Positions 6,973 through 33,100 of a stretch of 64,000 nt of DNA are shown here, one piece after another. Numbering within the stretch: the first letter of the stretch is position 1; each line of letters begins with the position of its first letter. Origin of the DNA: a candidate division WS6 bacterium OLB21 (GTDB lineage Bacteria > Patescibacteriota > Dojkabacteria > B142 > OLB20); NCBI GenBank assembly GCA_001567305.1, contig JYPD01000017.1, positions 1 through 64,000 of the forward strand. Direction: 5' to 3'. The notes below the pieces were generated by a model that was not told where the DNA came from, ran no database searches, and saw only the letters and a list, made by a program, of their open reading frames with translations. The position numbers and the translations under genes are program-made.

Positions 6973-8916
6973 TATTTGCTTATTGTAGCTTTAATTCTGC
7001 GAACTCCAGATCCGTTACTTTCTTCTTTTAATATACGAAATACGCCAAATTTTGTCAGTTCATTGGTATTTTCTACATGCGGACCTCCACAAAACTCTGC
7101 CGAAAATATGGACTGATCTTTTGGATCCTTAATAAAATATACATTTACAAGATCTCCGTATTTTTGACCAAACTCCATTTCGGCACCAATTTCTTCTGCT
7201 TTTGCCTTGGGCATAATCTGTTTTTCGACTACATAACTTTTGCGCATTACTTCGTTAACTAATTCTTCAACAGCAGAGATTTCGTCATTTGTAAGTTTAT
7301 CGTTATGAGAGAAGTCAATTCTTAGCCTGTCTGCTGTAATATTGCTTCCTCGTTGCTTAACATGTTTACCGAGAACTTTTTGTAGAGCAGCTAGAAGCAA
7401 GTGATGTGCGGTATGCAAAGCCGTTGTTTCTTTGGAATGATCCGCCAGTCCACCTTTAAACTTTTGCTCTGCCCCTGCTCTGCTGTTTGCTCGGTGACTT
7501 TCTTGTTCTTTATTAAAATCTGCAATTATTTTTGAGATATCTTCAGGTGTGAGATCTCCGGAATCATTGATTTCTTCACTTTTTATTTCTTCAATGATCA
7601 TTTCTATAGGGAATCCGTAAGTCTCGTATATAAAGAAGGCTGTTTTTCCGTCGATACTAATACCTCTGCCTGTAAATTTTTGCAGCTCCTTTAATCCTTT
7701 TTCGAGTGTTTTGGCAAACTTAACTTCTTCTTTTTCTAGTTCATTTAGTATCGTTGCTTTTTCTTCTATAAGATGGGGATAGTCTTCTGCATAGAAATCG
7801 ATTACTTTTTCTGCAATCTTTGCAGTAAACAAATCTGTAAGATCTATCATTCTTGCCCTTCTTACCATTCTACGAATCAGACTTCTTAAGATGTAACCCT
7901 GGTCTTTATTGGCAGGCTTGACGCCGTCTCCAAGGATAAAGACTGAACCTCTGATATGATCGGCAATGATTCTGAAACTTTTTGTTATCGAATTTTGTCT
8001 AGTCTGATCTATAGCCTTTCTATCTTTGTATCTTAATCCTGTAAGGTCTTCGAGAGAGGATATGATTGGTGTAAATAGATCTGTTTCGAAAATGTCCTCT
8101 TTGTTTTGTGCCAACATTACAACTCTTTCAAAGCCTCCGCCAAAGTCCACATTTTTTTGTGAAATCTCTTCCCATTTAAGACTCTCGTTTAATTTGTATT
8201 GTATAAAGACACTATTACCAATTTCGATGAATCTGCCACTGTCAGAATTTACATGTTCTTCTTCAGGGGAGACTTCGTTTTCGGCCACTCCTCTGTCGTA
8301 GAACATTTCTGTATCTGGTCCACCAAGTTCGCCTACAGCGTTGCCTCTTTGCCACCAGTTTTTTTGATTTTGGATACGGAAATATTCTTGCTGCGTGGGT
8401 ACTACCTGCATTCTTGATATTAGGTAGATCGTGGATATCTTCTGAAAATTCTGCAGTTACTCCGTATTTAGCAAATGCTTCTTGCCAATACTTGATTGAC
8501 TCGTCGTCTCTTGGAGCATCGTCGTCTCCTGCGAAAACAGTGACGAAAATTCTGTTTACATCAAGTCCAAATTCTTCGACATATAGTTTTAAAACATTAT
8601 TGATTTGTTCTTTCTTGAAGTAGTCTCCAAGCGACCAGTTCCCCATCATTTCAAACATAAGGGTGTGTCTGTTGTCGCCGATTTCTTCTATCTCTTCAAG
8701 TGATGTTCGCAGGCACCTTTGAAAATTTGTAAGTCTGGTGCCGAGAGGATGAGTCTCGCCAAGAAGATAAGGCACCAAAGGAAACATTCCCGAGTTCGTA
8801 AATAGGATTGTAGGGTCGTTTACTGGAACTAGAGAAACATTCTCGATTACTTTATGATTTCTTGGTGGAGAAGTCATAAACTTAAAAAACCGGCTTCGTA
8901 TTTCTTTAGAATTCAT
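6972..8916 (-). CDS. alaS: Alanyl-tRNA synthetase, C-Ala domain absent (frameshifted)
   Basis: The enzyme charges tRNA-Ala with alanine and hydrolyses Ser- and Gly-tRNA-Ala. The frame breaks at the T7 run 8359-8365; reading it as T6 gives KSKNWWQRGNAVGELGGP and one 647-aa protein. The class II catalytic core is clear (FTNSGMFPLVPYLLGE, RHTLMFEMMGNWSLGDYFKK). The editing domain has both zinc-binding elements, HTAHHLL and CGGPHVENT. The protein ends at GVRRIKATISK, so the ~200-residue oligomerisation/C-Ala domain of typical ~870-aa AlaRS is missing. It heads an alaS - polyprenol kinase - murB run on the minus strand. Confidence 0.95.
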
Positions 8917-13822: not shown

Positions 13823-13841
13823 CTATAAGGCTTTGTTTTTT
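13807..13841 (+). terminator. Terminator-like hairpin, plus strand
   Basis: AGCCT-ATAG pairs with CTAT-A-AGGCT (one bulged A, 7-nt loop) and is followed by TTGTTTTTT on the plus strand. On the minus strand no U-run follows. It overlaps the last codons of pyrG, so it would face pyrG from an as yet unseen plus-strand transcript. Confidence 0.5.
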
Positions 13842-15500
13842 AAAGCAGCCTTCGTAAATTCTAGAAAGATCGGGTGAGGATTTAGAGGTCTAGATTTGTA
13901 TTCAGGATGAGCTTGGGTTGCGAAGAAGAACGGATGTTCTTTTTGATCAAGTTCAATCATTTCAAAAAAAAAGTCGTCAGGTGAAGCACCTGATACTATA
14001 AATCCTTGATTCTCAAGCCTAGAGCGGTAATCATTGTTAAATTCAAATCTGTGTCTATGTCGCTCTGAGACGATAAGTCTCCTTTTATCCTTCCAGCCAT
14101 TGTGTTTATTGTATATCATTTCTGCAAGGCTGCCCTTTTTGATTACGCAATCGAATGCTCCTAGCCTCATCGAGACACCCTCTCCTTTTATCGTTTGATA
14201 TTTGCTGTTAAAAGGAATGCTATGAATAATTGGGTTTTGTGTGGAAGGATCAACTTCTTCTGTATGAGCGTCTTTTAGACCACATACATTTCTTGCATAC
14301 TCAACTGCTGCAAGTTGCATACCATAGCATAAACCGAGGTAAGGAATTTTATTTGTTCGTGCAAGTTCGATTGCAGATATTTTTCCTTCGACGCCTCTTT
14401 TCCCCCAACCTATGGGTACAATAATTCCGTCGGGTTTAAGCTCTGATAACATACCTATACCTCTATTCTCAATCTCCTCTGTATTGATGAATTTTAGATT
14501 GAGATCAATTTTGTTATACCAGCAGGCATGTTTTATAGCATGAATCAGCGAGATATAAGAGTCCGGTAGCTCGTAATCGCCTGTAGCAAAGTATTTTCCG
14601 GCTATTGCGACAGTAATTTCTTTGTCGAATTTTGATTTGACTCTTTTTACCAGTAGCTGCCAATCACGCAGGTCGGTTCTTTTCTTTTTTGGCTTTAAAT
14701 TCAATATAGACATCACCTTTTTATGAAACTCCTGATCTCTAAATACTCCGGGAAGCTCGTAAATATTATCTAGGTCTGGGTTGTTGATTATGTTGTCACG
14801 ATTGACATTACAGTTAATTGCCAATTTGTCTCTTCGTTTACGATCAATTTCTACTTCGCTTCTAACCACAAGAAATTCAGGTTGGATTCCTGCACTGTTA
14901 AGGAGTCGAATCGAAAGTTGAGTAGGTTTTGTCTTTGGTTCCCCTAGGTGTTTGGGAACTGGTACATAGCTGAGGTGCACATGTATAACATCTGCAGGAT
15001 GGTTCAGTTTCATAATCCTGGCAGCTTCGATGTTGAATATATTTTGATATTCACCTACTGTCCCTCCCAGTTCTACGATACAAATGTCGTTTCCTTCACC
15101 TGCGTTCTTAATATTTTTTATAATTTCTTCTGGAATGTGCGGAATAGCGTCGACGGTCTTCCCTTCGTATCCCATAGATCGTTCTTTCTGGATGATAGTT
15201 TGATAGACCATTCCCATTGTCAGAAAATTTTTGCGCCCCACCTCTATGTCCAAAAATCTTTCATATGTGCCTAGATCCATGTCTGCTTCAAGTCCGTCTT
15301 CACATAGAAAAGGATCTCCGTGTTCGATAGGATTGATTGTTCCTGAATCAACATTTAGATATGTTTCGCACTTTAATCACACCTACTTTAAAACCTCTTT
15401 TTTGTAATAATATGCCTAGGCTTGATGCGCATACTCCCTTTCCAAGTCCAGACAGTACTCCACCTGAAATAAAAATATACTTCACAGGTTGCTTTTTCAT
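13823..15500 (-). CDS. pyrG: CTP synthase PyrG (frameshifted)
   Basis: PyrG makes CTP from UTP with ATP and glutamine. The N-terminal ~45 residues ([20 protein letters not shown], the P-loop region) lie in a different frame from the rest; removing one G at about 15371 restores [20 protein letters not shown] and a 558-aa protein, the normal length. The synthetase domain carries [15 protein letters not shown] and VELGGTVGE. The glutaminase domain has the nucleophile in [15 protein letters not shown], where most family members read G-x-C-L-G-M-Q, and the HPE of [11 protein letters not shown]. It is transcribed alone as far as can be seen. Confidence 0.95.
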
Positions 15501-15547
15501 ATTAAAGTGAGGGTGTCTAATAAATAATCGGGGCAGATTAATATTTC

Positions 15548-16768
15548 TTATTCAGTTAAATAGTTTCCTGCAGCCAATGCTTCGATAACGAAAGCAAACT
15601 CAGCCTCTCTTCCGTCTTCAAGTTTAGCTATACCTTCAAACATATAGTATGGCTGAAGAAATTGAGTGGATGGAATATTGGCTTCCCAAGAATCTGGTTC
15701 AATATATATTATTTTAGTTTTTTCTGGAAGAGCATCGAATCTGGTGACTCTAACACTTTCTGAGCTAGTGAAAGGATTCTTATCTTGAGGTCTTAACCAG
15801 TAAAGGTAACCTTGATTTGCCTGTATTCTATTCCATGCCTGTTCTGCTGTAATTGTGACATAAACAGCTCTTTCGCCTATATCAAATTGTCTATGCTTGA
15901 ACTGAATGATGTCTTCAGTAGGCTTGTCACCTTTCCCCTGGATAAGGAATACAGCAGGTGCCTCGATGTATGATTGTTTCCTTATGTCGGACAAAATTGT
16001 TTGAGATGGATTATCGTCATTTTCCTCTGGTTTATAGTTTTCTCGTAGAGATGCAGATTCGATAGTCTTATATAAAGCAATTCGGACATAGCGGGCATCT
16101 ATAGCTCTTAATACTGGAGACAATTGTCCTTCTACATTTCTGTTCACGAAATCCACCCTTGAGTTTGCCTGATTAAAGTAATTGTCCCCAAGTCCAAGTT
16201 GATTCATTAAAGAACCTGCTCTTAACTGATAAAAATTTTTATCAAGTTCAAGATTCTTATTAGGCAGATTGCCTATTGGATCCTTAAGTGTGTCGACATT
16301 GTAAATCCAATCCTCAATGACTTTATTGTAGGTAAGTGTGCGTGTATTATTATTTGTCCCCCAAAAGAGAACATTCTCTGAGGTATTTCTAAACGATTCT
16401 CCTTCAAAGCCTAATCTGTTAGCTGCATTTATTGCTCTCGGAACGCTTCCAAATGTTTCTGCAGGTCTAAGTAATTTGTAAACATTTGCCACCTGAGGAA
16501 AGCTAGGCAGAATGCTGGTTAAGGCATATTCAGCCCTTGTATCAGGAGAAATCGGAATCGCGGTAATTGCTTGTTTGGGTAGCTGTCCGAATAAATTATC
16601 GGCAGGCAGATAGCCAGTGCTTGAGACATCGATTCCTGATGGAGGTGTTGTACTTGGTGTTAGGAGCTGTAAGAAGGCATCAAATACAAATACGACTATA
16701 ACAAATACTATAAAAAAGATAATGAATTTTCTGGCGAGATCTGTGGATTTACTAAGTGATGAAGCCAC
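15548..16768 (-). CDS. Single-pass membrane protein of unknown function
   Basis: I do not recognise this protein. From the GTG at 16766-16768 it is about 406 aa: a short N-terminus, one membrane helix (residues ~14-34, [20 protein letters not shown]), then a long extracytoplasmic region without cysteines. An ATG at 16882 is in frame, but it would overlap the divergent gene by 57 bp and lies upstream of a minus-strand TATAAT at 16814-16819, so the later start seems better. It is divergently paired with the DUF3048 gene and may act on the same surface complex; that is inference from position only. Confidence 0.7.
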
Positions 16769-16825: not shown

Positions 16826-18128
16826 ATGAACAACTTTGAAGAAAGTGACAAGTTCCGAGTACGAGGAACTATCAAAAATCATAAGATCGGCGGTAAAAAG
16901 ACTGTCAGTTCAAACATTAAGTCAATGTTACTGACAAAACTAATACCTGCTGTTGGGTTATTTCTCTTAGTATTCTTCTCTTTTGCATTATTATCAGACT
17001 TTTTAAGAAAGCCAAATATCGACAAATTGAATACTGATTATAAACTGGTAACTTCTATCCCAGTTCTCGAGTATTCTTACGAGAAACAGCTAATCTCTAA
17101 ACCTTTAGAGATTCGAGATTCAGAAAACCCTATTAATGGAACCATGATTACTAAAACTCAGTATGATGAACTTCTAACAAGGCATCCTGTTGCAATAACG
17201 ATTAATAATTATCCAGCTGCCAGGAGTCAACATGGATTAACCTACGCTGATGTAGTAGGAGAATTCTTGGCTGAGGGTGGTATAACCCGTTATGTCCCGA
17301 TCTATTATTCCAATCAAGAAGTCGAAAAAAGTCGGTCCGATAAGAAGTCTTAGGTACTATATGATTATGTTCACATCTGAATATGCAGACGCAATCATAT
17401 TGCACGAAGGACAAGCCGGCTACGATGATGCCCCTTGGGAAACCTATCGTGAACAAGCTGACGCCAGGGGTGCAATTAGAAAATTTGGAATTAAGAATAT
17501 TCAAACTGCGGCTACGAGGTATAGAGATCCTGTCAAAGTTCGCACTGCAGGCTCTGTTCACGCTATGTACACTGGGTTTAAGCTAATTAATCCTGAAGTA
17601 GAAAGATTAAGTAAAACCAATAAGTGGCAACTAGGTTCATCTAAATTAGAGCCACTTTCTTTCAAATACGAGGATGATTTTGCAGACAGAGGTGATTTTT
17701 CAAAATTAACAATAGATTTCATGACTCTCAAGGCAAATGGCAGTAATTTCCAGGCAGAATTTGCATATGATAAACAGTCAAATTCCTACAAACGATATAT
17801 TGCTGGTAAAGAAGATATTGATCTGCAAAGCGGAATGCAGATATCACCAAAAAATGTCGTAGTTGAATGGCATAATTATGGTGATGCAAACGATGGACAT
17901 GGCAGGATAATTATCGACATGATCGGTAATGATCGTGTGCAGATATTTCGCGACGGGAAAGTAATCGAAGGTTATTGGCAAAAAGATTGCAGGACTTGCA
18001 GAACAAAGTATTTTGACGAAAACGAGAATCCAATCGAACTAAACCGTGGACAAACCTGGATCGCTTTTGCTGTAAAAGTAAAAGATAGATTGGTAAGCAA
18101 TGTAAATTTACAATACAATGAAGATTGA
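16826..18128 (+). CDS. DUF3048 (YerB-like) domain protein (frameshifted)
   Basis: Reading the A6 run at 17325-17330 as A5 joins two frames into a 433-aa protein. It has one N-terminal membrane helix (residues ~35-57) and a DUF3048/YerB domain outside: PVAITINNYPAARSQHGLTYAD, FLAEGGITRYVPIYY, then VGPIRSLRYYMIMF. Later residues include ARYRD-type segments and DGHGRIIIDMIGNDRVQIFRDG, as in other YerB proteins, whose function is unknown. The stop overlaps the start of the next gene (TGATG), indicating coupled translation with the substrate-binding lipoprotein. No Shine-Dalgarno sequence is seen; a TATTAT ends 7 bp before the ATG. Confidence 0.85.
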
Positions 18129-19449
18129 TGAACATGATTAGAGTCAAAACAATTGCATTATCTTTGCTTGCGCTAATATTTCTTAGTGCTTGTACTTCTC
18201 CAGATACTGGATCTGTCACCCCTGTACCGACTTCACAACCTGAAAATACCATCCTCATTTGGTGGAACCTATTTGAACCATATGAAAATGTTAAACCATT
18301 AATCGATGCCTATACTGCTAGAAATCCTAATGTAACTATTCAATATGATCAAAGAGGTGTTCGAAATGGAGTATCGGGTTATCGGTCAGAATTAGATACA
18401 GTTCTTAATGACGGTAATCCTCTTACAACGCCAGATATATTTACGATCCATAACACATGGGGTCGGGCTTATGAAGATAAGATTAGCAAGGCACCAACCA
18501 CTATTGTTTCGGCAGATACAACAGGGGCTTTTATACCCCTGTTGTACTTTCAGATTTTGCTTATGACGGAGTTCTTGCCTTGCCACTGTATGTTGATGCC
18601 TTAGCAATTATTTACAATAAAGATAAGCTTCTTGAAGGTGCTTATACTTTTCCGAGTGATGACTGGCTCGAATTCTCACGAATGGCGACCAATCTTACCA
18701 AGTATGACAATTCAAACAGAATGATCAGCGGAGGATTTGCAGCAGCAGAAGGTAATACTCAATTTGCAACAGAGATGCTAAATGTATTCATGATCCAAAA
18801 TGGGGTCACCATGAGTGATCAAAATGGTGTTGCAGTATTTGCTGATCCTGCAAACAAAGCAAAATCTGAAGAGGCTTTGTCTACCTATAAGAGGTTTGTT
18901 AGCGGTAGTACTGTATCTTGGAGTGCATCAATGAAGTTAGATATTGCTTCTTTTCTCGAAAAGAAACTGGCTATGTTTGCAGCTCCAAGTTGGAGGTTAA
19001 TAGACATTATTAACTATAATCAAGAATACAACTTGGGATTAAACTTTGGAGTGGCACCGCTGCCTCAACTTGGAAGTCTTAGCGATACAGAAACAAAATA
19101 TTGGGCCAGTTACTGGGGACAAACAGTATCTTCAGATAGCAGAAACTCACAGATCGCCTGGGATTTTATAAATTTCATTTCGCAACCAGAGCAACTGCGC
19201 CTTCTTGATCAAACAATCAAAGAAAACGGCAGACCAATCGGAATAATTTATCCACGGCAAAACATGTCCGGTGAGGTACTATCTGACCAAAGATCAACTG
19301 AGCTACTTGGTCCTTATGTGCAAGCAATGTCGCGAGCTGTTACTTGGTCAATGAAGGATGGAGATATTATGAAAGATGAGTTTCGCAAAGTTTTGTCAGG
19401 TCAGGCAACATTTGAAGCAGCTCAGCAAATACTAAACCAAAATGAATAA
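18128..19449 (+). CDS. Extracellular sugar-binding lipoprotein, ABC type (frameshifted)
   Basis: A 440-aa family 1 (MalE/UgpB-like, COG1653) solute-binding protein. The lipoprotein signal ends in the lipobox LSAC at about residue 22. It is followed by ENTILIWWNLFEPYENVKPL, a typical first strand of these proteins, and the second lobe carries FASFLEKKLAMFAAPSWRL-like text and the closing WDFINFISQPEQLRLL. The frame breaks at the T4 run 18529-18532; adding one T restores FYTPVVLSDFAYDGVLALPLY. No permease or ATPase of a sugar importer is nearby. The gene sits between, and is translationally coupled to, two surface proteins. Confidence 0.85.
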
Positions 19450-21368
19450 TCAATACAATAAAATTATCGGTCTGACTCTTGTCGCATTTTTTATGCTTGT
19501 TTCGGGTTCACCGGTGTCCGCAGTAACAAAGGGCAACGATGAAGTTTATATCGCATCACCAATAAATAACGCTGTTGTCACTGGTATTACACAGGTTCGA
19601 TATTTTCTTAAAGAGGCCGATAAAGCAGACATACCCTACCAGATCGATCTTTTCAGTTCTGCTTGTTCAGTTAATGGTCCATATTTTGGGACAATAGCAT
19701 CGGGTTCAAAAACTGCCAGCGCAAACGGAGCTTACTTTACAGACCTCTGGGATACTGATGGTCCCATACAAAATAGAAGTTCAATTCCAGATGGGTTCTA
19801 CTGTGTAAGGATATGTGCAACTTTTCGTGAACTTCCCAATAATTTTTATTCACTTTGCGATAAACATACTGTAGCCGTTGGAAATACCAATAGGCCTCCT
19901 GTTATTAATTCTCAACCTCCGAATTCATCAATTAAAGTTGGTGAAGACTTTACATATCAAGTTCAGGCAACAGATCCTGATGGCCATAAACTCACATATG
20001 TAATAGATAAAGGTGGAGATTTCTTCTTGTACATGAATAGAGATACAGGACGAATATATACAGAAAAAACTATTACGACGGCTGGTTCCTATCCAATTAC
20101 AATTACTGTATCCGATGGTTTTGGAGGTGTTGTCAAACAGTTTTTTACTCTTAATGTTACCGAACCCGATCTACCGCCTGCAGCAATAAATTTTGTTGTT
20201 CCCGGAAAAGATACCGTTATTACTAAAAACAACAATAAGTTATCTTGGAATATTGAAAGGTTTAATCCGACTTCCATTTTGTTATCGTATTCAAAGGACG
20301 AAGGTAAAAATTGGGTTCAAATCGCTAATCTTAGTGGTAGCACAACAAGTTATGAATGGAATCTGCAAGGTGTAGAGACGGGTAAGTATTTATTAAGGAT
20401 AATCGCGACAAACAATGAGGGTAAAACTATTGAAAAGATCAGCGAACTGTTTGATGTAACAATTGCTACTACAGATACAGGAGAAGAAGCGCCACTAATC
20501 ACAATACTATCTCCTCAAGAAGAAGAAAGGATACAGGCTCAAAAGGCCAATAATTCAGGCTTCAATCAAACCATCTACAAATGCTGAATTGTTGCAAGAA
20601 GGCATAGAAGTTCTCCTCGACGAAGAAAAACTTACAGTATGCGATTTCGCCAACGAAAAACTGGAATGTCAACCTGCAGAAGATTTGTCTGATGGTAGAC
20701 ACAAAGTACAGATTCGAGTGACCGATTCAGCCGGAAAGTTTTCTGTTAGAGAATGGTTCTTTTATACAGGCGAGTCAGAACCCGATTCTTTCCCAGACAG
20801 TATGCCAGATAGTAATCCAGATTCTTATCCAGTAAATATTTTCTCTTTTCTAGGCGCTGAATTGACGCAGGTTATATTGTTAATCCTTTGTTGTGGCTTG
20901 TTATTAATCGTTGTACCTTGGATGTTATATATACTTCTAATTCGCAACAGAAGAAGCTCTTCAGATATTGCTACAGACTATGGATCGGTAACTTATACGG
21001 ATAATTCACAGCCATTGGTGCCAAATCCCGATATTCCATATTCAGAGACAACAATTGTCATGCCAGACCAGACAACAACTTACGCAACACCAGAAGTGTA
21101 TGAGCCAAGTATTGGAACACAGACTATAGGTGAGTACGAAGACCCTTTTATTAGTAAACAGGAACCCGTTCAAGAGATGAAGGTTGCTGCCCCAGCAATC
21201 TATAACGATGACGAAATCCCCGACTGGCTAAAAAACACAGATAGTGCTAGCGATAGTAAGCCTGTGGTGCCACAGGGTTCATCTTTGGATTATGATAATA
21301 AAACTGCTGAAAGTGCCAATCCATACGGAAGTTATGGAATAGCAAGTCAAAACGAGAATCAAGAATAA
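19442..21368 (+). CDS. Cadherin-like (putative Ig) type I membrane protein (frameshifted)
   Basis: The joined 641-aa protein has a signal peptide (about residues 1-26), a beta-rich N-terminal domain with several cysteines, a cadherin-like/He_PIG domain (~150-245, NRPPVINSQPPNSSIKVGED and VQATDPDGHKLTYVI), an Ig-like domain, and a second Ig-like unit. A short Pro-Asp-Ser repeat (PDSFPDSMPDSNPDS) precedes one membrane helix (~475-500) and a ~150-residue disordered cytoplasmic tail. The extra base is in GGCC at 20545-20548. The start overlaps the lipoprotein gene by eight bases (ATGAATAA). The exposed repeats suggest binding or scaffolding at the cell surface. Confidence 0.78.
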
Positions 21369-21379
21369 ACCCTCTTATC

Positions 21380-24178
21380 TTACAGATTGTTAAAGCTGAG
21401 AATCGGTTCGTTTCTGTAATTACCGGTAAATGTGTTTGGATCTATATAGATTAATAGATTACCGTCGACTTCAACAGATTCTTCTCGGCCAATTGCCAGG
21501 AGGATGTTTCTATCTCCATTCTCAAAATCATCAGATTGTGTTTGTGCAAGAGAATCCATTAAGATACGGATTCTTTCTGGAGTCCATTGTTCGTTAGTAT
21601 TGATCAGACTGATATTGTAATGATCGAGTTTGTAAGCTTGCCTTGGTTCCTCGATCGATTCGTAGCCTTGTTTAATATTCTCTTGTTCAATAAAGACCGC
21701 TTCTCCACCCTGCTCCCAGTTTCTGGAGATAATTGTGAACAACATACCGAAAGCCATAAGAAATCCGAGAGCATCTTCTGGATTAATCCCGTTTCTAAGC
21801 ATCTTCATTAAGTTGAATAGTGCCATTACTCCATTGAATAGTCCGATCACTCTGTTTGTAAAACCTTCAAGGACACTATTTACTGTTCGATCAGCTAGGC
21901 TGCCAATATACGAGCCAAACAATGTTCCGATGAAGCTTCCAACGGCAGCACCTATACCTATACCTATTCCTGCAGTGACAGTTCCTAAAGTTGCAGCTCC
22001 AATAAGTGCTCCGGCTGCAGAGGCTCCTGCGACAGCACCGGCTATCCCACCGATACCGCCTGCTGCAAGTGCTGCAGGACCGCCAAAGCCAAGAGCAGTT
22101 GCAAGAACTGTCCCTACTACCCCTCCAACTGTTGCTCCAAGAGTTATTGGATTCGTTAACGATAACGGCCCACTGGCAATAAATCTAAATGGCTGTTTGA
22201 TGATATTGGCGACAGAACCAAGTGCTCCCCTCCAGGTAAAGCCAGTACTTGAAACTCCCTTGGATAATCCTAAGCCGATTCGTTCTAAACTACCTTCGAT
22301 TCCCCTATTTGCGAATTCCATTGCAACGCTGCTGCCATATCTTGAAAGAAGTGCGTTGGTTCCGGCGTGAATCCCAGAAATGTAGCTGGCTGCTCCGATA
22401 TAATTTGTAATGACTGTGAAAGTTTGCATGCCACCGCCTCCGGTCAAGGTAAAGTTGTCCTGAAGGTATCTACCTAGGTCGTTATCGTAATCCGATCTTA
22501 ACAGGCGAATTTGTTCCCCGAGCCATTGACTACTAACTGCTTGATTTAGAAGAGCTCCACTTGGTAAGTGAGCAATCTTGTTCAGAAGACCGCTTGTATT
22601 ACCCTGCATATACTGAGCTACTCTGTTCCCAACAAAACGATCTATAAGGAATCTGCCACCTGCACCGGCAGCAAAACCAAATCCTGCTGCAAGTAAGGGG
22701 TTGCCTCCAAGAACGGTTGCAGCTATTGCTCCAAGTGAAGCAACAGTCGTTCCCGCATCTAAGGCTCGGAAAGCTCTGGTGGCATTAGAATATACATTTC
22801 CGCGATTGATAATTCTTTGTTGTGCTTCTGGAGATATCCGATTCTTTCCAAATGCGGAATTATCCCAGTCACCCATTGCATTCTTAAGTCCTCTGGTTGC
22901 GTTAGAGGTGCTATAAGCTGCTACACTTCCCACGGCAGTTGCTGCTAGACCGAAAGCCACTCCAGCTGCAATATTTTGAGTAACGAGGCTCATGGCTAGA
23001 CCTGACATTGCTCCTCTTGGAGCAGCTTTACCTACTGATACGACACCTCTGGCTGTGGCCCGAGCTCCGTTCCAGATTGCTGATCTATTTTTAATAACTA
23101 GTTCGACTGGTTTGACAACCGCTTTTGCGCCAGTTGAAATACCAGCTTGTGACCAACGAACTGCTCTTGAGTTTCTAACCGAATCGCCCACCCTAACAAT
23201 GTTTCTGCCTGTAGCTCTTAATGCTTCTGGGGTGTTATTAATTACCGCGCTTGTTCTGGAAGCTATACTGCGATATGTGTCTGTATTCTTAAAAGTTTCT
23301 AATCCAACTTTTATATTTTTGGCAGTATTTGAGTTGATTATACTCTTTCCAACCTGAGAATTTACAAAGCGATTATGAGTAACCTGCCTCACTCCACGAT
23401 AGAGTTTTTGGCCAGCCTCGCTTAACTGGTTGATTTTGTCTAAGACAAAATCTTTTGCGAACCTAAGAGTTCCTTCAAGCAGGAATTTTTGCAGAGCATG
23501 CTTATCTTTCTTGCGTTTTCTTTCTGCAGCCCTTCTAGTTGCAGCAAGTCTAACTTTTGTGTTCTTTCGAAGAGTTCTCTTTGCACTTTTTGATTGCTTC
23601 TTTAGCCATTCGGTTTTTTCCTGTACAAAACTACTATTCCTGTATACAAACCCTGCTGCCTTTTGAACTCCGGATTTGCCTTTGCCACCTATATAGCTTC
23701 CTCCGGATATTGCGGCTTTTAATACAAAGGCGCCCGCACTCTTAGCCGCTTCTTTCGGAATTTGTCGAACTACCCGCCACGACTCATCCATTATTTTTTT
23801 GTTAGCCCTTCTTTGTGGAGTCCATGGAAGCACATCTGGGTCAAGTAGTAGTCCAAGATAGTCTCCTTTACGGAGAGCTCTTTGCATTCTGACAACCTTA
23901 TTATCGTACTCGGCTTTAATGAATGGATTGACTTTTCCCCCTCTATGTTCGGCACGAAATCTTTCCTTGAAACTCGCAGGTCGTTCAGGTTGGGGCTCAG
24001 GTTGAGGTTGTTGGCTTGTAGGTGTCTGTTGCTGACTTTGATTTTGCTGATCTTCTGACTCTTCGTTAAGTTCTGCTTCAATCCTTTCGTCGTCGGCAGT
24101 GAAGGAATCGTTCCTTGTTACGGAGTTTGCTTTTCTTAAAGAGCTAAGAACTAGTTTTAAGGTGTTTCCGACAATCAT
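21380..24178 (-). CDS. 932-aa glycine-zipper membrane protein, unknown function
   Basis: No family is recognised with confidence. The N-terminal third is hydrophilic: a Gln/Pro/Glu-rich segment (~40-70) and a Lys/Arg-rich stretch (~170-235). Hydrophobic Gly/Ala blocks follow at ~390-420, ~476-515 and ~670-765; the last is a long GxxxG glycine-zipper array (for example GGIGGIAGAVAGASAAGAL). Another hydrophobic region lies at ~780-815, and the C-terminus is soluble. Such zippers pack helices in channels, translocators and pore-forming proteins. It is the last and largest gene of the minus-strand operon 33332-21380 and overlaps the preceding 42-codon gene by ATGA. The gene is intact despite its length. 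Confidence 0.75.
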   Translation of the reverse strand: MIVGNTLKLVLSSLRKANSVTRNDSFTADDERIEAELNEESEDQQNQSQQQTPTSQQPQPEPQPERPASFKERFRAEHRGGKVNPFIKAEYDNKVVRMQRALRKGDYLGLLLDPDVLPWTPQRRANKKIMDESWRVVRQIPKEAAKSAGAFVLKAAISGGSYIGGKGKSGVQKAAGFVYRNSSFVQEKTEWLKKQSKSAKRTLRKNTKVRLAATRRAAERKRKKDKHALQKFLLEGTLRFAKDFVLDKINQLSEAGQKLYRGVRQVTHNRFVNSQVGKSIINSNTAKNIKVGLETFKNTDTYRSIASRTSAVINNTPEALRATGRNIVRVGDSVRNSRAVRWSQAGISTGAKAVVKPVELVIKNRSAIWNGARATARGVVSVGKAAPRGAMSGLAMSLVTQNIAAGVAFGLAATAVGSVAAYSTSNATRGLKNAMGDWDNSAFGKNRISPEAQQRIINRGNVYSNATRAFRALDAGTTVASLGAIAATVLGGNPLLAAGFGFAAGAGGRFLIDRFVGNRVAQYMQGNTSGLLNKIAHLPSGALLNQAVSSQWLGEQIRLLRSDYDNDLGRYLQDNFTLTGGGGMQTFTVITNYIGAASYISGIHAGTNALLSRYGSSVAMEFANRGIEGSLERIGLGLSKGVSSTGFTWRGALGSVANIIKQPFRFIASGPLSLTNPITLGATVGGVVGTVLATALGFGGPAALAAGGIGGIAGAVAGASAAGALIGAATLGTVTAGIGIGIGAAVGSFIGTLFGSYIGSLADRTVNSVLEGFTNRVIGLFNGVMALFNLMKMLRNGINPEDALGFLMAFGMLFTIISRNWEQGGEAVFIEQENIKQGYESIEEPRQAYKLDHYNISLINTNEQWTPERIRILMDSLAQTQSDDFENGDRNILLAIGREESVEVDGNLLIYIDPNTFTGNYRNEPILSFNNL

Positions 24179-24303
24179 TCTTTATATCCTTTGATGTCAT
24201 TTTCCATGACCCTAAGTTGAGATTCGATCTCACGGATCTCTGGCTCAAGGTCAAAGAAGTACTTGTATACATTAATATTTTCGTTGTTTCCTGCTGTTGC
24301 CAT
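24175..24303 (-). CDS. Small hypothetical protein, 42 aa
   Basis: A 42-codon gene begins MATAGNNENINVYKYFFDLE and ends ENDIKGYKE. The second half is a charged helix (EIREIESQLRVMENDIK). Its ATG shares one base with the stop of the upstream gene (TAATG) and its stop overlaps the next ATG by four bases (ATGA), an arrangement hard to get by chance. It probably encodes a small soluble partner in the operon. Family unknown. Confidence 0.7.
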   Translation of the reverse strand: MATAGNNENINVYKYFFDLEPEIREIESQLRVMENDIKGYKE

Positions 24304-25266
24304 TAGCGAAGTTTCTTTTGAATTTCAATTATTTTATTTGATATTAACTTCCTCTCTTTTTCAAGATCCTCTGCTTCTTTGATTAAAGCCTCAAGTTGTG
24401 GTTGTTTGCTCTCATTCAAGTCTTTTTCAAGACCAAGCAACTCTTGCCTTAACTGTAAGAATGCAGGATTATTTACGAAACCTTGTGGATCAAGTTTTTT
24501 CATCTCTTCTATTTTGCCTTGAATCTGTTCAATCCTAATAGATGAACCCATGATTATGTTTTTCAGATCACTATGCATCGATACATTCATTCGAATCTTT
24601 TTTAAAATTTCTTTCAAGCCTGGCGTTCTGTATTCTAAGTTCACTTGTTAGTGCATCTCTGCGACTGAAAATTTGTCCAAGCATTGCGTAGTTGATAGGT
24701 GTGCGAATCTCGTTAAGGTTAACATTGTTAACAGAGTTTATGATGTTCAGAGCTCTGTTTTCTACGCTTGTTGGAATAATATATGAACTCTGACCACCAG
24801 AGGCTGATTTATTCTGTCTTCCCTTGTTAATCATTGAGATTAATGCGTTTTCCCATTCTGTGATTTGAATTTCGTCTTGGGCTCCTGTTACACGAAGAAT
24901 GCCCTTCATTTCTAACTGAGCCTTTCTTTGTTGCCAGGTTGCATAAATCTTTTCTACAACCTGTAGATCAACTGCATTATTTGTTTCGGGTAAATAGATG
25001 TAACTGTTAATGCGATTAATTGCCGATAGAACAAGTTTAGGATCTTCGCTAATCATTTGTGCCATTAGAGCGAGTGGGACTTCGGTATTCTCTGGAATTT
25101 TTTTACTATCGAATTCACTACTGATCTTTTCTAATATTTCGACCAATTTATCTGCATCACCCGGAGCCATAGGCTTTTTATCCTTAACAGATTTCCAGCT
25201 CGAAATCAGATCTGAAAGTTCAGTTGTTGTTAAGGCTACTATGCCAAATCTTTCGTCCTTTTGCAT
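24303..25266 (-). CDS. Coiled-coil protein of the 21-33 kb operon (frameshifted)
   Basis: Reading the T6 run at 24598-24603 as T5 joins two frames into a 320-aa soluble protein. The N-terminal ~200 residues are helical with no known domain (it opens MQKDERFGIVALTTTELSDL). The C-terminal ~120 residues are a charged coiled coil with KIEEMKKLDPQGFV and LEKDLNESKQPQLEALIKE. There is no signal peptide and no membrane segment. It begins one base into the stop of the preceding gene (TAATG) and ends the same way on the 42-codon gene. Function unknown; a cytoplasmic structural or adaptor role fits the coiled coil. Confidence 0.7.
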
Positions 25267-26453
25267 TAAGATACTTCTGACAAATAGTCAATTAATGTAA
25301 AGTTTGGGCTCTCAAGGCCACCAGTTACAGCATTGAATATTAGAGTTCTTGCTTCTTGGGTTAAGTCAATATTATATGTCTCTGAAGGCAATGGAATCAT
25401 TTGCCCTTCTTCAAGCAACAGGTAAAGGTCAATAAGAATGTTGTATTTTTCATCATTTTCCTGATAATCCTTTAAGTCTCGGTAGACAATCTTGTAAAAG
25501 TTTTCGGGAATGATTAGTGCATCATGAATATAGAACAATAATAGTTCTTTATAATCATCTTTTAGGGCGACTCTAGTTTCTGGATAAAGGGCTGTGATTG
25601 ATTCAAGTTCTTCGTCTAATATCTCGTCAATTGATTCTTCTAAATCTTTCAAGCTTTCAGGGAATTTTGAACCTGCCCCGATACTGTTCATTTTATAATA
25701 CGCAAGTACATTTGTTCTCGCCTCTTTTACAGATTGTCCTCTGGAAAGATATCCGTACACTCTAGCAGCGAAGTAGTTAACAGTTAAAGTGAGTAACATT
25801 TCACTAATATCAAGTAGTTCGTTTCTAAGCAGACTGGGAGCATTTTCGAAGATTGTAATATCTGCTAAGTCTTGAATCATTTGTTCTTTCAGGTTAGGTA
25901 TCTCGGCAATGGTACTTAAGTAGCTGGCGATTTTATGATAAGAATCCTCTAGTTGGATTGATGCGGCAACATCTAAGTTGCCCATTTCATCGACGATAAA
26001 AATATCTGGGAGCTGTATATTTATGGCAGTGGGAAGAATCTTGAGATCTTCATCTTTTGTAGGAATTAAATCAAGAATTCTTAGTTCCGTATTTGTAGGG
26101 ACTCTTACCAGTTGGTAGTCTGCATACTGCTTCTTTGCTTCGATAAAACGAAGTAGATAGAGGTCGTGCATACTGTCAATAAATTTCTCGCTAAGTCCTC
26201 CATCTGTTGGGGTTGCATCTTCAACTTCGAGCAGGTTCATCAATTGTTTAACAAGTTCAACGAATCTAGTCATTGCCTTGGATACTTCTTCAGTTACTTG
26301 TTCAAATTTGATGGTTTGACTTTCTTCTTTACTAAAAAGAAATATGTAATCAAGTATCTGCGGTCCAAGATTTGCAACGAAAAAATTCTCCAATTCAAAA
26401 ATGGATTTATTAATCTTAAGTATTTCTTCTGAGTTATTAATTGTAGATGTCAT
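25266..26453 (-). CDS. Soluble acidic helical protein of the 21-33 kb operon
   Basis: The 395-aa product is acidic, predicted mostly alpha-helical, without signal peptide, membrane helix or cysteine, and matches no family I know. Recurrent Glu/Asp/Leu helices (LKDLEESIDEILDEELESI) suggest a protein-interaction scaffold. It starts seven bases past the corrected stop of the VirB6-like gene and ends in a one-base overlap (TAATG) with the coiled-coil gene, so it belongs to the same coupled operon. The frame is intact. Confidence 0.7.
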   Translation of the reverse strand: MTSTINNSEEILKINKSIFELENFFVANLGPQILDYIFLFSKEESQTIKFEQVTEEVSKAMTRFVELVKQLMNLLEVEDATPTDGGLSEKFIDSMHDLYLLRFIEAKKQYADYQLVRVPTNTELRILDLIPTKDEDLKILPTAINIQLPDIFIVDEMGNLDVAASIQLEDSYHKIASYLSTIAEIPNLKEQMIQDLADITIFENAPSLLRNELLDISEMLLTLTVNYFAARVYGYLSRGQSVKEARTNVLAYYKMNSIGAGSKFPESLKDLEESIDEILDEELESITALYPETRVALKDDYKELLLFYIHDALIIPENFYKIVYRDLKDYQENDEKYNILIDLYLLLEEGQMIPLPSETYNIDLTQEARTLIFNAVTGGLESPNFTLIDYLSEVS

Positions 26454-26459
26454 TGGTTA

Positions 26460-27934
26460 TTAGCCAGGATTACCAAAGACATTCAGCTTTCTTCCGAGTC
26501 CGGTTACAGCACCGGCAGTGATTTTGCTGACTCATTGGTTCTTCTAAACATAGTTTCGAAGAATACATTACCTTTGGCTACACCTAGATTATCTTTAATT
26601 AAATCTGGAATTGAAGGCAAGTACAGAAATATTCCGAATACAGTAATTGTTTTGAATAATCCTCCACCAACCGCTGCATCAGAATAGCCAAGAAGTGGTG
26701 GCTGCCAGACTGCGTTTCCGGCACCGCTAAATTCTTGGTCGAAGGATACTGATAGAACGATTAAGAATAGCAAAATTGCATAAATGGCAATAAAAACTAG
26801 CGCTGATGCAAGAAGCATTTTGAAATAGTTTGAGATTACAGGACTTATTGGCCCGCCACCACTAGGTATTGCGGCAGTTAAGAAAACAAACGGAGAAAAT
26901 ATCGGAAATGTGGTGAGAATAATATAGTTGTTTAGCAAGGCAAGCATTAGTTTAAACGCTGCTCCAAGGGCTGTTATTGCGATTAAAAGACTCACAAGAA
27001 TATTTGTAGGGTTACCTTCTCCACCTGCTGGAACGAGAAGTCGAATGCTTTCAGCTATCCATGACATATTTGTTTCTGGCAAGTCTGGAATAAGTCTATT
27101 AACACCACAACTGTCGGCATTACTACCAACGCATGTATTCCATTGTGTCGCTTCCCACACACCCCAGATACTGGTTTTGGGGTCGTCTGGCTGTAATTCA
27201 CTTTTCTGGTTTTGGTCAAAATACTCAAAACCAGGTGAACCTTCGGCACCTACCATTACACTAAAAGTAAAATTGGTCCCTACCGTAATAATATCTATGA
27301 AAATTGCAGACAGTGGATAACTAAAGGTTACTAAAGCTAAAGAAACTAATATTGATGGTAGAGAGTTAGCAATTGTAACCATAGTCTGTCCACCTAGTTG
27401 CTGTCTAAACAGGATTAGGAAAGCAACAATAATTAGAATTATTATGAAGAATGAATAAGCAATATTTCTGGCCCAGGTCCAGAAACCAAGGATAGGTCGC
27501 ATGAGTTCGAATCCAATACCAGGTGAATAGGTTGTATCTTGGGCTTGAACAAGAATTGAATCATAGCCGGCAATCATGTTGACTTGATCTTGTGCCCAGA
27601 TGATTGCACTTGAAGGTCTACTTTCATACATTGAAGCGATGATTCCAGTGACATTACCCATTGCCGATGCTGTTGCTCCTTCGTTTTGACAGATAAAGTT
27701 GCCATCTGCGTCTGTACAATCGATCTGAACTTTTAGAGCAGTTAATGTTCCATAGAGCGCATTTGGTCTAAGGCTAGTTGCTCCGGCCCAGTTATCGTAT
27801 GCAGTCGCAGCCTCGACTCTATATGCATTAGTGAAAAGAAAGACAACAGTTAACAGAGAGATTAGAAACCATGCAGGATTAACCTTTCTGAATCCTTTTA
27901 ATGGTTTAAGCAATGAATGAGCAAGTTTATGCAT
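26460..27934 (-). CDS. VirB6/TrbL-like polytopic membrane protein (frameshifted near 3' end)
   Basis: From the ATG at 27934 (MHKLAHSLL) the protein has a signal sequence ending near YRVEAATA, a ~110-residue extracytoplasmic domain with a Cys pair, then six or more membrane helices. The block FLILFRQQLGGQTMVTIANS followed by LPSILVSLALVTFSYPLSA is typical of the TrbL/VirB6-like proteins that recur in CPR genomes. Family members form the inner-membrane channel of type IV secretion systems. Adding one base at the T4 run 26522-26525 extends the C-terminus to ITAGAVTGLGRKLNVFGNPG, giving 491 aa and a stop seven bases before the next gene. No VirB4 or VirD4 ATPase is encoded nearby. Confidence 0.78.
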
Positions 27935-27992
27935 ACGCACGCAGATAAAATCTGAATACAATCAGTATAGAAAGAATAATTAGCGATGGCAA

Positions 27993-28471
27993 CTATTTGG
28001 AGTCGACGAATTGGTTTAATCTCTCTGGTAATTCGAAACTTGGATTAGCTTTTTTTATTGTCAGCATAATGTTAATGTCATCAACAAACATAGCCGCTAT
28101 CTCTGCCATAGCTTCTGCTGGCAGATTGTCGAACAGAGTATCGATTAAATCTTGGTTAATTTTTCTAATTTTTTGCTCTACTCGATCACGATACTGTGGA
28201 TGCTTAATGTTACATTCGAAAATATAGGTATAGAGCCTTTCAAGATTTTCTACCTGTTTGCTTCTGTCATCTGTATCTTCACACAAACTATCAATAAATT
28301 GAGATTCTTCTTCTAGGTTATTTTTCTTCAATATATTGAAAAAAGTTCGTCAACTTGAATCTTTTCTAAGGCTTCACGATAAGTTCGTTTCATATCAACA
28401 AGCCTGAGTTCGTTGAAACCCAAGTGTTTAATCATTAATTCTTCTATTCTAGGATCGAATATTAGTAACAT
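27993..28471 (-). CDS. Small soluble protein of the 21-33 kb operon (frameshifted)
   Basis: A 47-codon frame from ATG 28471 and the following frame join into a 159-aa protein if one T is added to the A6/T6 run at 28339-28344, giving VDELFFNILKKNNLEEESQF. Without that correction the second frame would have to start at TTG 28331. The product is soluble, acidic and probably helical (INQDLIDTLFDNLPAEAMAE). No family recognised. The ATG is two bases after the stop of the preceding gene, which favours the longer, joined form. Confidence 0.6.
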
Positions 28472-28473
28472 AA

Positions 28474-30128
28474 TTACATATCAGTATTCATTTTCATAAA
28501 AGCTCTAGAATAATCAAAAACGGCCGAACTGACTTCTTGTGTCATGTTAGGTTTATATTTGTATAGCTTTTCGAACTTCTCCATAACATCTTCCCACATT
28601 TTCTCGATGTTTTTTGTATAAGCAGCTAACATGTTGAGAGTATCAGTTGGTAAAGTTTGACCATTTCTGCATTGCTCAAAAGTATTACGCATCCCTTCGA
28701 GTTTTTGAGCTGTTTCTTCTGCAATTCCGTTTCGACCTTTCCAACCGTCTCGGGAGCGATCAAGATATTTTGACATAAACCAATCCCAAAGTACTACAGA
28801 GATGAACACATTTGGACTAAGTAGAGATAGTGACAATAAAGGCGGATAAACTGTTAGTCCTAAAGCAACACCGCTATAAACACCCCAGCGTATAACCTTG
28901 TTTACTTTTGTAATAAATGCCCAGAATTTCGCCCTCTTTCTAGTGACTTCTGCAAGTTCTGTTGTCTGCATCAGCTTTTGAAGATATTCGAAATAAATTC
29001 CTAATCCTCTATTTTTATTATCTATATCGTCCCTTATTGCAATCGGGACTTTCCCGACTAATTTCTCTGTTCTTTCGGTGGTAAATGTAGTTAATGGTTT
29101 GCCAGTAGCGGTATCATATTCCATATGACCAAACAGAAAATTGTTTCTATCTTCAGTGGCAGCATCTACAGGTGCGAGTGGAGTAATAAACCCTTGAGGA
29201 GTCTGCTTCATGATTTTTACATCTTGGTCATACTCAACAAAATTCACCATACTTAAGTGTCTTCTCTGTTTATCAGAAAATTCAATGCGAAGGATTCTAG
29301 TAGGGTCATCAGGATGTTTAATTAGTACATATCCTCTTGCCTGAAGACTTTCGATATCTTGGTCTGTCATTTTTAGTGCGGCCTTGTTGTCAATAGGAGT
29401 CCCTATTGTTGTCGGAGGTGTTTTGCTATAGTCATATTCTTGCGTCTCCATCAGACTGAATGATTCTGGATACATTCCGGCTATTGATTTTGTTTCTTGG
29501 TTGTTTGTCGACGAGTTGTCTTTAAAGCCAAGTGGAACAGTAAATACACTCGTAGCTAGAGCCTTCTCTGCTTTTACTGCTTTTTGTCCGTATACGCCAA
29601 ATTCGATTACTTTTGCTGCCTTGGCACTGTAAAAGTACTTGACGAATTCTTTTATAAGGTCGATTTCGTATAATTCGGTAGATTCTCCTATCTTCACACG
29701 CACATGTGGCCAGTCTGTTAATTTGTCTGGATCATCAAGATCGGCTTCGGCTTGATCTACAGCGTTGATTAGATCCTCGATCGTGTAATGCCTTATTACT
29801 GTGCCTAGTGGAACTGCTGTTCCAACTTTTGCTTTGTTGAATTCAGCTAAATCGGCCGTCATCATTGCATTAGCAATCTTTTCAAATTGTTCTTTTAAGT
29901 CATATTCTATTCCATAAAATTTTTTTTCTTCATTCGCTCATTTCTTTTCGGGTTATCCTTCTCTACCTTTGGAACAAGAGCAACGATAAGTTCTTTAAGG
30001 TTATCTGACATTTGCCCCTTGCGCAGAAAAAGTTCGTGACCTTCAGTAATAAGGTCGTCCATATCTCTGCCCATTATGGAGTCATTAGCAAGCCAATTTT
30101 CTCTTAAATCACTTGGCGGGAGATTCAT
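28474..30128 (-). CDS. Hypothetical protein of the 21-33 kb operon with a membrane hairpin (frameshifted)
   Basis: ATG 30128 opens a 73-codon frame that breaks in the T8 run at 29920-29927. With one base added the reading continues as KFYGIEYDLKEQFEKIA into the long downstream frame, giving 551 aa. Most of the protein is soluble. Two adjacent hydrophobic segments (about residues 425-465, WGVYSGVALGLTVYPPLLSL and FISVVLWDWFM) may form a membrane hairpin, and the C-terminal ~90 residues are helical. No family recognised. The start overlaps the stop of the preceding gene by ATGA. Confidence 0.65.
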
Positions 30129-33100
30129 GGACTTTGAAAAGACCCGATTAAATCTATGTTCATCTGGTTCTCTGAAGTCTCGTAATGAATTCTCGTAGCT
30201 TGAGCTTCTTGCTTAAAACCTCCTATTGATTCGAGTATTAATACTACCTGACTTGATTCTTTTCCTAGTTCTCCAATAATTGATGCCGAATGTTGTGCAA
30301 CTGTATCAGCTATTCTGGCAGAGGTAAGTCTTTCCATGTAAGTTTTATCGACTGCGTCGATTTTTTTAATATATTTCTCTCTGATTACACTAAATGGCCA
30401 TAGCGTAGACAGCTGCCCACCTAGTCCTTTGCCTATTGGATCGGCCCCGAAGGCGTCGTGGAAACCGAAGGTTCCTGCAATTCTTGATCCCCATTTTTTG
30501 CCAGCTACCTTTTGAAATCCTCGCACAACATATGCCCCAAAGGCTTCATTCATTTTCATAGAACTGGCAAATGGAGTGAAGTATCCAAAAGGTCTGGTGT
30601 CTTCTGCTATTGTTGCTCGGTTGCCAAAAAAACGAGTACCATAAACCAACCTCACCTCTGCTCCCTTTCACCGCGGCCGGGTTATATTTTCGATTAGTCA
30701 TAAACTTCTTCTGAAGTCCAGAGTACATACTACCTTTATTGAAGGATATGCCATTGATATCAAGATAATTAGACTGATCGCCAATTAGAAGCTCTGTTTC
30801 AATAGCAATCAACTCTTGTTTTTGTTCTTCTGTAAGTGATGCAAAGTTGGGAATACTTGTTAGCCTGTTAAGAATAATTGCCTGAATGTTAGCTGTAGAG
30901 TATTTGCCATTTTCTTGTTTGGTTTGTTCTTGTGCGAATAGATTAGGAAATAATTCTGCAGTAAGTGATGCTAAAGGACCTTCACCTAGAAATCTTTGCA
31001 ACTGCACAAAAGTCATATCTTTTTTTCGTGAAAGCAGATATGTAAAGATCTCAAGGTTCGGCTTAAATACTTCAGTTCTGAATTTATCGTCATTTAGTGC
31101 TTTTGCGGCAGCTTCGTTGTATGCATTAATAAGTGTAATTATTACCATCTCTTGTTCGCTTATTCCCTCTTGACCTATCTTTTCTGGATTAATTCCAATT
31201 TGGGCAGCATTGATCGGTTTTATTTCAACTCCTGATGCAGAAGATAGCATCGTTGCTGCAAGCTCTTCGGACAAAGGCGGCCTAGATATTTCTTTATAGT
31301 AATTCAGTAGCTTTCCTGCCCTGGTTTCTTTAGCTACAAGTGATTTAACATAATTTGCAAGCTGCTCGTCTTGAAATCCCTCTTCGCTAAGTTTGGCGTT
31401 TATTGATTCGGCATCCAGTCCAGATTCAAAATACGATTCTGTGATTAATTGTATCGCTTGCGATCTGTTGTTGATTGAAACATCTAACTTGTCTAATTCT
31501 TTTGAGATGATCGTTTGTATTCGAAGCTGTTTTGCCTGTTTCTCTTGGTATCTGATTGCGGCATTTTCGAGATGCAGCATTTCGTGAGGCAATGTGTCTC
31601 TGGTAGCAATCACCGTTCCTTTAATTGTCAATCCGTCAATTCCAAGCTCTGCTGCTCTAGCTTCATCTATTTGTCCCGAAGAAGTAAGAGAAGCCAGCCG
31701 TTGGATTGTCTCTTGGTCGGTGATAATAATTGGACCGCTTCCGCCTATATGAAGCTCAAAGTTGGCACCGAAGAGTCTACTTGCTTCTGCCAAAGCCTGA
31801 TTATCTGTAATTAGATCAGCAAGAATAAAATCTTTGAGTCTTTGATCTGCAAATTCTTGTGCTTCATCAGAAAGGACTGGTTCTTGCCCGAGCACTGCAA
31901 ATAGATCGTTTTCGTAAATTCCTTCGTCGTTTTTTTGTAAGAGTCTGGTTGCAGTATCTTCTGAATTCATAGCCTGCATAGCGGCAGCATAGTAGATTCT
32001 TGCGTATTCTTTGTTCTTTCGATCTTTGGCAATAAGAAGTTCGGCCATGGCTCTCATTTCAAAGCCGATGCGTCTGTAAACAGGACTCTCATTAGCTGTG
32101 TCTTCTGCACTGGATACTTCATTTAAATAGGTATCAACAATTGTGTCGATTTCGTCGTTTGGAAAGAATTGTTTATATGTTTCTGCAATTTTTGTTTTAA
32201 TTGCCTGTTCGCTTGACATTTGTTCGGTCTGCTCCGGATCCTGTCCGGGAATGAAACCTCCACCGATCTCAACGAAACTTGCTGGGTCATAAGACCCTGC
32301 TAGAGCAAGGTGATCAAATATTTGTTCGTTTGCTTCTTCGATTTTTGCTTTCCATGACTTAAATCCCTCGTGCAGTTCAGGGTATTCACCTAGATATGCT
32401 TCTGCAGAACTAATTGCTTGTTTTGTAATATTTCCTTCTTGGGGACTAAATGGCTCGGGTTTTCTACTTCTGACTTGTTCTCGTATCTGCTCTCGTCTTT
32501 TTTTTTAGTGAAGATACAATCTCGCCTGGAGACTGAGTTTAGGAGTATCTTCTGGAGTTTGACCATTGTCTTCAACTTGCTCAACTAATTCAGAATCTGG
32601 TTGATCTATCTGTTCTTCTGTATCCGCTTCTGCAAAGTCGCCAACTTTTGCGATTATCTCTTCTTTAGAAAAGCCCGCACTTTTTAATAATTTTATCTTT
32701 CTTTCGCGACTAAGATTTTTGCCTGCAAAAAAGATGGCTAGGGCTACAAGTCTTTTCTTGATTGGGTGTAGTAAGATTGCAATAAGTCCTGGGTCAGTGC
32801 TTTTGCCATGTGCCTTTATAAGTTCAGCTTCTATACCAGATGCTTTAGCAAGGGCCCCATTAACTTTTATTTTTTGATTTTTTGTAAGTTCGGCTTCTTG
32901 AAAACCAAGCTCATCAATTTGCCTTTGATAATCAGCTGGATCGACTTCAGTTCCTGAACCAGGGAAGTCAATAATGTTTTCTAGTGCGTTGGCTACAATT
33001 TCTTCTTCTGCCTGTATAGCCTTCAAAACGGCATCACTCTCTAACTTAGCTTTTTGTATTTCGCTGTCGGCATATCTTTGTAATTCTTGAGTAGTTGCAG

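Follow-up and report, generated by a model that had tools for sequence, protein, structure and literature searches.

The subject here is a three-gene unit at positions 16826-21368 of a 64,000-nucleotide stretch of DNA (the window; contig JYPD01000017.1, positions 1 to 64,000, from the candidate division WS6 bacterium OLB21 of the Dojkabacteria). It codes for a DUF3048 protein, a solute-binding lipoprotein of the MalE type and a membrane protein with immunoglobulin (Ig)-like domains, and the reading favored, to which about even weight is given, is that it is a surface unit for glycan reception or attachment and not part of an importer. Import via a normal ATP-binding cassette (ABC) transporter is very unlikely. 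A first-pass annotation, made from the letters alone, had called the binding protein an orphan coupled to both of its neighbors, and had proposed recognition or attachment, or signaling through the cytoplasmic tail of the third protein, in place of uptake.

The three genes follow one another on the forward strand in the order claimed (open reading frame list and Pfam matches), and the DNA letters bear out the coupling on both sides, with the start of the binding-protein gene overlapping the DUF3048 stop in the TGATG at 18126-18130, and the Ig-protein start lying inside the binding-protein gene and overlapping its stop in ATGAATAA at 19442-19449. Each gene is read from two open frames, a matter dealt with below. 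The DUF3048 (YerB-like) protein has both domains of its family over cut-off, PF11258 (E 5e-15) in 16826-17353 and PF17479 (E 2e-25) in 17292-18128, lacks a lipobox and has a membrane helix spanning residues 39-57, and its G001 relative matches the YerB structure 2psb (E 1.2e-24). The binding protein carries a lipobox, LSAC. Its N-terminal part (18128-18604) gives a weak PF01547 match (E 0.003), and the C-terminal part (18580-19449), 57% identical to its G001 counterpart, has SBP_bac_8/SBP_bac_1 over cut-off (PF13416, E 4e-13). The Ig protein, by a hydropathy rule, is indeed of type I with a tail: a signal peptide and a He_PIG domain (PF05345, E 4e-10) in 19442-20587 are followed, in 20589-21368, by a Big_13-like end below cut-off, a single membrane helix (residues 95-113 of that frame) and a cytoplasmic tail. 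Of the cadherin and Ig domains earlier ascribed to it the latter stand, whereas the Cadherin model reaches 24.2 bits against a cut-off of 28.8. The trio is not a chance array, since the order recurs with intact frames in G001, G002, G005 and G007.

The case against import begins with the permease. No match to PF00528 was found in the window genome (1.05 Mb, 87% complete), and the same search was positive in 14 of 14 control genomes. An importer elsewhere in the genome is therefore rejected and the orphan designation upheld; a permease operon lacking its own binding protein, the case that would have told against it, was looked for in the 87%-complete genome and not found. The genome has 16 ABC_tran matches, and the loci checked, a part of these, are exporter types plus one with a metal-type ABC-3 permease, the sole importer type among them; nowhere in the checked loci does a MalK-type ATPase stand beside a PF00528 permease pair.

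The same picture extends to relatives (both samples used include the window's own genome). In the 57-genome sample the binding protein is present in 50, with one SBP_bac_8 gene each, and a PF00528 permease in five, leaving 52 without one. G022 counts as a carrier by the profile alone; for G004, G036, G041 and G042 the test was made with PF13416 and the protein of the window. The permease loci examined, one per genome in those five, are nearest to SsuC/TauC/NtrB (sulfonate, nitrate, taurine) or Opp/Nik (oligopeptide, nickel) systems, all below NCBIfam cut-offs, and one of them adjoins an SsuA-like binding protein. In the 332-genome sample of the phylum, a profile of the binding protein matched 251, which is an upper figure for orthologues because the profile could also pick up further members of this binding-protein family (matches extend to E 4e-4, in G178, and some genomes give two), and the permease occurs in 47 (45 over cut-off). 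When the two lists were compared by eye, a permease was present in 42 of the 251 and missing from 209, with five genomes having a permease and no binding protein. For 24 genomes among the matches listed the positions of the two could be compared: in 19 they are on separate contigs, and in the remaining five the smallest distance between them is about 29 kb. A second orphan, outside the window, is an OppA-like SBP_bac_5 gene (G000:C25:138343-139414, G000 being the window genome), a family found in 51 of the 57 genomes, mostly as one match each; of the five genomes with PF00528 just G033 has a permease oligopeptide-type in look.

Uptake by some unrecognised route, with the sugar passed to a non-ABC channel or to some permease so diverged that PF00528 misses it, would make the binding protein one of nutrition. 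Reduced metabolism would favor such uptake and the conserved site-like residues described below suit it, and in PMC7137472 K02027, a multiple-sugar substrate-binding protein, is listed as one of the essential transporters still kept by Patescibacteria. (PMC11809585 reports, for one genus, both a peptide/nickel binding protein and a system for transport of multiple sugars.) However, besides the lack of PF00528 in this genome and in the 209 profile-positive genomes, and the exporter character of the ABC systems checked, no permease candidate is found among the Pfam-named neighbors of the gene, and this route is considered unlikely. If so, counting a K02027-type gene as a sugar transporter, as the survey PMC7137472 does, may overstate uptake ability.

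The window frames were left unmended and structural work was done on intact relatives. The model of the G001 orthologue (mean predicted local distance difference test score, pLDDT, 90.8) has the two-lobed fold of a binding protein, and its best PDB matches (Foldseek, VIA-align) are oligosaccharide-binding proteins of ABC importers, the top one being the beta-1,2-glucooligosaccharide-binding protein 5ysf (Z 37.9, root-mean-square deviation 3.3, 369 residues aligned). In an alignment of 121 sequences, with a mean top-residue frequency of 0.43 over positions 50-450, P324 is invariant, D114, N175, F287 and V345 are at 99%, D168 and P164 at 95%, and W122, W191, W276 and N222 at 93%. D168 aligns with E111 of MalE, which we take to be a sugar contact. 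With these conserved, site-like residues the ligand may be an oligosaccharide. The mode of anchoring is more varied: by a simple rule, 20 of the 121 have a lipobox-like sequence, 88 an N-terminal membrane helix, and 13 are unclear, so that, as predicted from these sequences, membrane anchoring is conserved in effect and not in kind. A contig-wide scan gave five loci: one on the contig of G003, a genome of the window's own family (L032, a Candidatus Dojkabacteria record whose protein is 53% identical to that of the window), one each in the candidate phyla Falkowbacteria and Spechtbacteria, and two weaker outside matches (E 2e-10 and 6e-6).

Within the class Dojkabacteria, the pairing with an Ig protein is more constant than the trio. 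The next same-strand gene encodes an Ig-domain membrane protein in 27 of 33 loci (26 of these proteins are complete and one is truncated where its contig stops); the others, excluded from the Ig-protein alignment, have a PilB-type ATPase gene (five loci of family f8; Pfam on one) or something else (one locus of family f5). All 26 complete proteins have an N-terminal helix or signal followed by a later membrane helix (hydropathy rule), and their alignment contains four invariant columns, with Pfam recognising Big_7 in 13 of them and He_PIG in 11. Across the class, presence of the one gene tends to go with presence of the other: both are present in 41 of the 57 genomes, the binding protein alone in 10 (eight f8 genomes, G023 and G035), the Ig protein alone in one (G042, at a contig edge) and neither in five, a Fisher p of 0.004 that ignores kinship, with Ig proteins counted at E <= 1e-30 and the 26 from which the profile was made being bound to match. 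Neither protein is present in G010 or G041, though members of their respective genera (G027 and G045; G034) carry the two. A side observation from f8 is that at L070:7487-16813 the binding-protein gene adjoins the PilB-type ATPase gene, and that genes for a VirB4-type ATPase and for a weakly matching PrgI-like protein run divergently from it.

It is here that signaling through the tail, the other half of the earlier proposal, has to be weighed. A receptor in which ligand binding is relayed via the Ig protein to its tail would be in keeping with the uniform single-helix type I topology, with a long, Pro-containing tail in most members, and with a match, below cut-off, of one member to the sensor-associated Y_Y_Y Ig-like model; sensors fed by binding proteins do exist, ChvE/VirA and LuxP/LuxQ being examples. 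However, tail length ranges from 7 to 357 residues (18 or fewer in three of the 26), and a Pfam scan of the 26 at E 0.001 gave no cytoplasmic signaling domain, so that a signaling function is thought very improbable.

DUF3048 adjoins the pair in f1 and f3, occurs in the retrieved surroundings of the f2 and f6 loci, and is missing at those of f4. The three-gene arrangement is therefore a local enlargement of a class-wide two-gene unit, and the search for it in other genomes, while successful for the same order in the four relatives named, does not extend it beyond f1 and f3 as adjacent genes. On the other side, and divergent from the unit, 15548-16768 (reverse strand) encodes an N-terminal helix and a domain of about 350 residues with no recognised fold; homologues stand beside the unit in f1, f2, f3, f4, f6, f10 and f12, and the model of that from G001 (pLDDT 87) has no PDB match at E <= 0.001.

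Outside the class other partners appear. The 79 loci considered (L110-L188; L189 excluded) came from the best-scoring profile matches listed, so that weak matches are under-sampled; the profiles for pilin, VanW and galU derive from members of the loci themselves, and L111 and L143 enter the neighbor totals via genes more than 4 kb away. In 39 of the 79 a gene of the type IV secretion system (T4SS) pilin family (four members checked as PF18895) is directly downstream on the same strand, overlapping in 10 of the 39 and within 57 bases in 30; L113, L114, L123, L129, L142 and L149 are examples with one or more such genes. A VanW/PG_binding_4 gene is present in 22 (adjacent in 21), and an NTP_transferase gene (PF00483), read as galU-like, in 27 (adjacent upstream in 26).

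The latter two neighbors are what gives substance to envelope housekeeping, with the protein binding the cell's own glycans, of the wall or a surface polysaccharide, in the course of their assembly. An O-antigen-ligase-like protein among neighbors in other genomes, and a sortase, LytR-CpsA-Psr and YceG at the class locus L065, point the same way. Against this, no such enzyme adjoins in the window, where the partner is adhesin-like, and absence of the binding protein from G010 and G041, genomes of good quality, speaks against an essential role in the wall. A housekeeping function of this kind is judged improbable.

In a tree of 112 binding proteins the VanW group forms one branch with support 100, and the pilin context changes four times and the Ig context three times, compared with shuffled means of 19.5 (VanW), 32.5 (pilin) and 24.4 (Ig). 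The gene seems to be ancient and for the most part passed down within lineages, each with its typical neighbor, and because of this inheritance the 39 pilin-linked loci are not independent events. VirB4 lies 5.5-23 kb from the binding-protein gene in 22 genomes, all of f5, f7, f8 and f9, perhaps as the relic of one arrangement in an ancestor. Overall, VirB4 is on the same contig in 25 genomes, on a different one in 23, and missing from two, a count that excludes fragments below cut-off, among them the only VirB4 match of the window genome.

Several of these observations weigh against a receptor or attachment unit as the general explanation. No single partner accounts for the conservation, because the tree has partners differing among lineages, and ordinary housekeeping neighbors (dnaJ, nusA, ruvX, DNA polymerase delta) also occur. 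Family f8 has the binding protein and lacks an Ig partner for it, and the unit is dispensable, as five genomes lack both. As to secretion, VirB4 is as far off as 73, 130 and 297 kb in G043, G021 and G034, other genomes with both on one contig. In the window itself no connection with a T4SS is apparent, the pilin match listed for its genome being on another contig; among the 33 class loci a pilin gene is directly downstream in none and within 6 kb in five. Pilin genes are moreover common (54 of 57 genomes), and the pilin model is also positive in one of 14 controls.

A glycan receptor or attachment unit nevertheless fits the orphan status and the Ig pairing, from which the role in recognition or attachment, as first proposed, is extrapolated. 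The binding protein would sit on the outer face of the membrane, held there by its anchor, beside a type I membrane protein reaching outward with its Ig/cadherin-like domains; the former would recognise a sugar on a host, a neighbor or the matrix, and the latter, if the two are physical partners, would supply reach or adhesion. The unit would then represent, in Dojkabacteria, an orphan binding protein that roughly three in four of the phylum's sampled genomes possess and that is linked in other groups with T4SS-pilin genes or a VanW/peptidoglycan-binding protein. A more sweeping and decidedly speculative extension is that Patescibacteria have turned an ancestral ABC binding protein, its permease lost, into a phylum-wide host-glycan receptor of cell-contact machinery that helps to choose the host cell, with lineage-specific effectors (for Dojkabacteria the Ig adhesin, for other lineages a wall-binding protein or the pilus arrays of a T4SS). 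Host recognition by Patescibacteria being an open question, a surface-anchored ligand-binding protein of this distribution is a concrete candidate. No publication on an orphan binding protein in these bacteria was recognised in a literature search whose scope lay mostly outside subscription journals, nor is there anything on it in the available parts of PMC6744442 and PMC11665869; in what is accessible of PMC10633639, where pilin genes of the T4SS cluster are described as essential in a Saccharibacterium, the terms 'solute-binding' and 'substrate-binding' are absent.

The frames themselves need comment. The earlier annotation reported no frameshift, yet each of the three genes has one, as located by tblastn with proteins of the relatives G001 and G005. 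In the DUF3048 gene it is near 17325, from about which point relatives match the second frame (tblastn with L047/L049); in the binding-protein gene it is within 18523-18544, relatives matching the C-terminal part from about 18523 and, being intact, the N-terminal part also; and in the Ig-protein gene it is within 20524-20541 (L047 from 20541). One reading would make the split genes pseudogenes, the decaying remnant of a lost import system, and that all three are affected could be taken in its favor. However, relatives carry intact copies, the binding-protein family is conserved across the phylum sample, and housekeeping genes of the same window, as named by reading, are likewise frame-split by tblastn with relatives, alaS (6972-8916, reverse strand; break within 8314-8483) and pyrG (13823-15509, reverse strand; break near 15370), as is the OppA-like gene elsewhere in the same assembly. 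A remnant is accordingly rejected, with next to no probability left to it, and indels introduced in assembly are the most likely cause of the breaks, errors of assembly being the simplest explanation because these other genes are split and relatives are intact. A perfect 11-base inverted repeat, TACAACAGGGG / CCCCTGTTGTA, at 18517-18546 coincides with the frame change in the binding-protein gene; programmed frameshifting there was considered and rejected, as the intact relatives require no shift. Genes read as a P-type ATPase (44415-46095, reverse strand) and rlmN (52219-53254, forward strand) are also in two frames in the open reading frame list, and the assembly seems indel-rich.

Downstream of the unit, 21380-33332 on the reverse strand contains large genes, including those for a 932-residue protein and a multi-helix 485-residue protein, and is partly conserved beside the unit. 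It was considered as a T4SS and rejected, there being no Pfam match over cut-off in it; a likeness of 26504-27961 to VirB6 is conjecture.

Among known systems, the MalE-type proteins of importers are the closest in fold (5ysb-5ysf, GacH 3jzj and CbpB 7x0k; 355-376 residues aligned at Z 33-38 with the model of the relative, in the best 50 rows), and have Pfam SBP_bac_1/8 in common with the window protein, itself also a lipoprotein. Identity is, however, just 14-20%, the window genome is without the PF00528 permease, and in most other genomes an N-terminal helix replaces the lipobox. Pertinent in a different way is the ChvE-VirA pair of Agrobacterium, where a sugar-binding protein serves host recognition and is tied to a T4SS; its partner is a histidine kinase, of which the trio has none. 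The T4SS of Patescibacteria with its VirB2-like pilin arrays, as described in the available text of PMC12102498, has in common the pilin family that follows the binding-protein gene in loci outside the class, whereas 'solute-binding' and 'substrate-binding' never occur in the main text of that paper as accessible to a term search. With YerB (2psb) the window DUF3048 protein has both domains in common, and differs in its membrane helix, in lacking a lipobox and in adjoining a binding-protein gene. Bacterial Ig/cadherin-like surface proteins with He_PIG or Big_7 are like the third protein in having a signal peptide, an Ig-like ectodomain and a single membrane helix, and the family to which it belongs is set apart from them by its four invariant columns and by the coupling of its gene to that for a binding protein.

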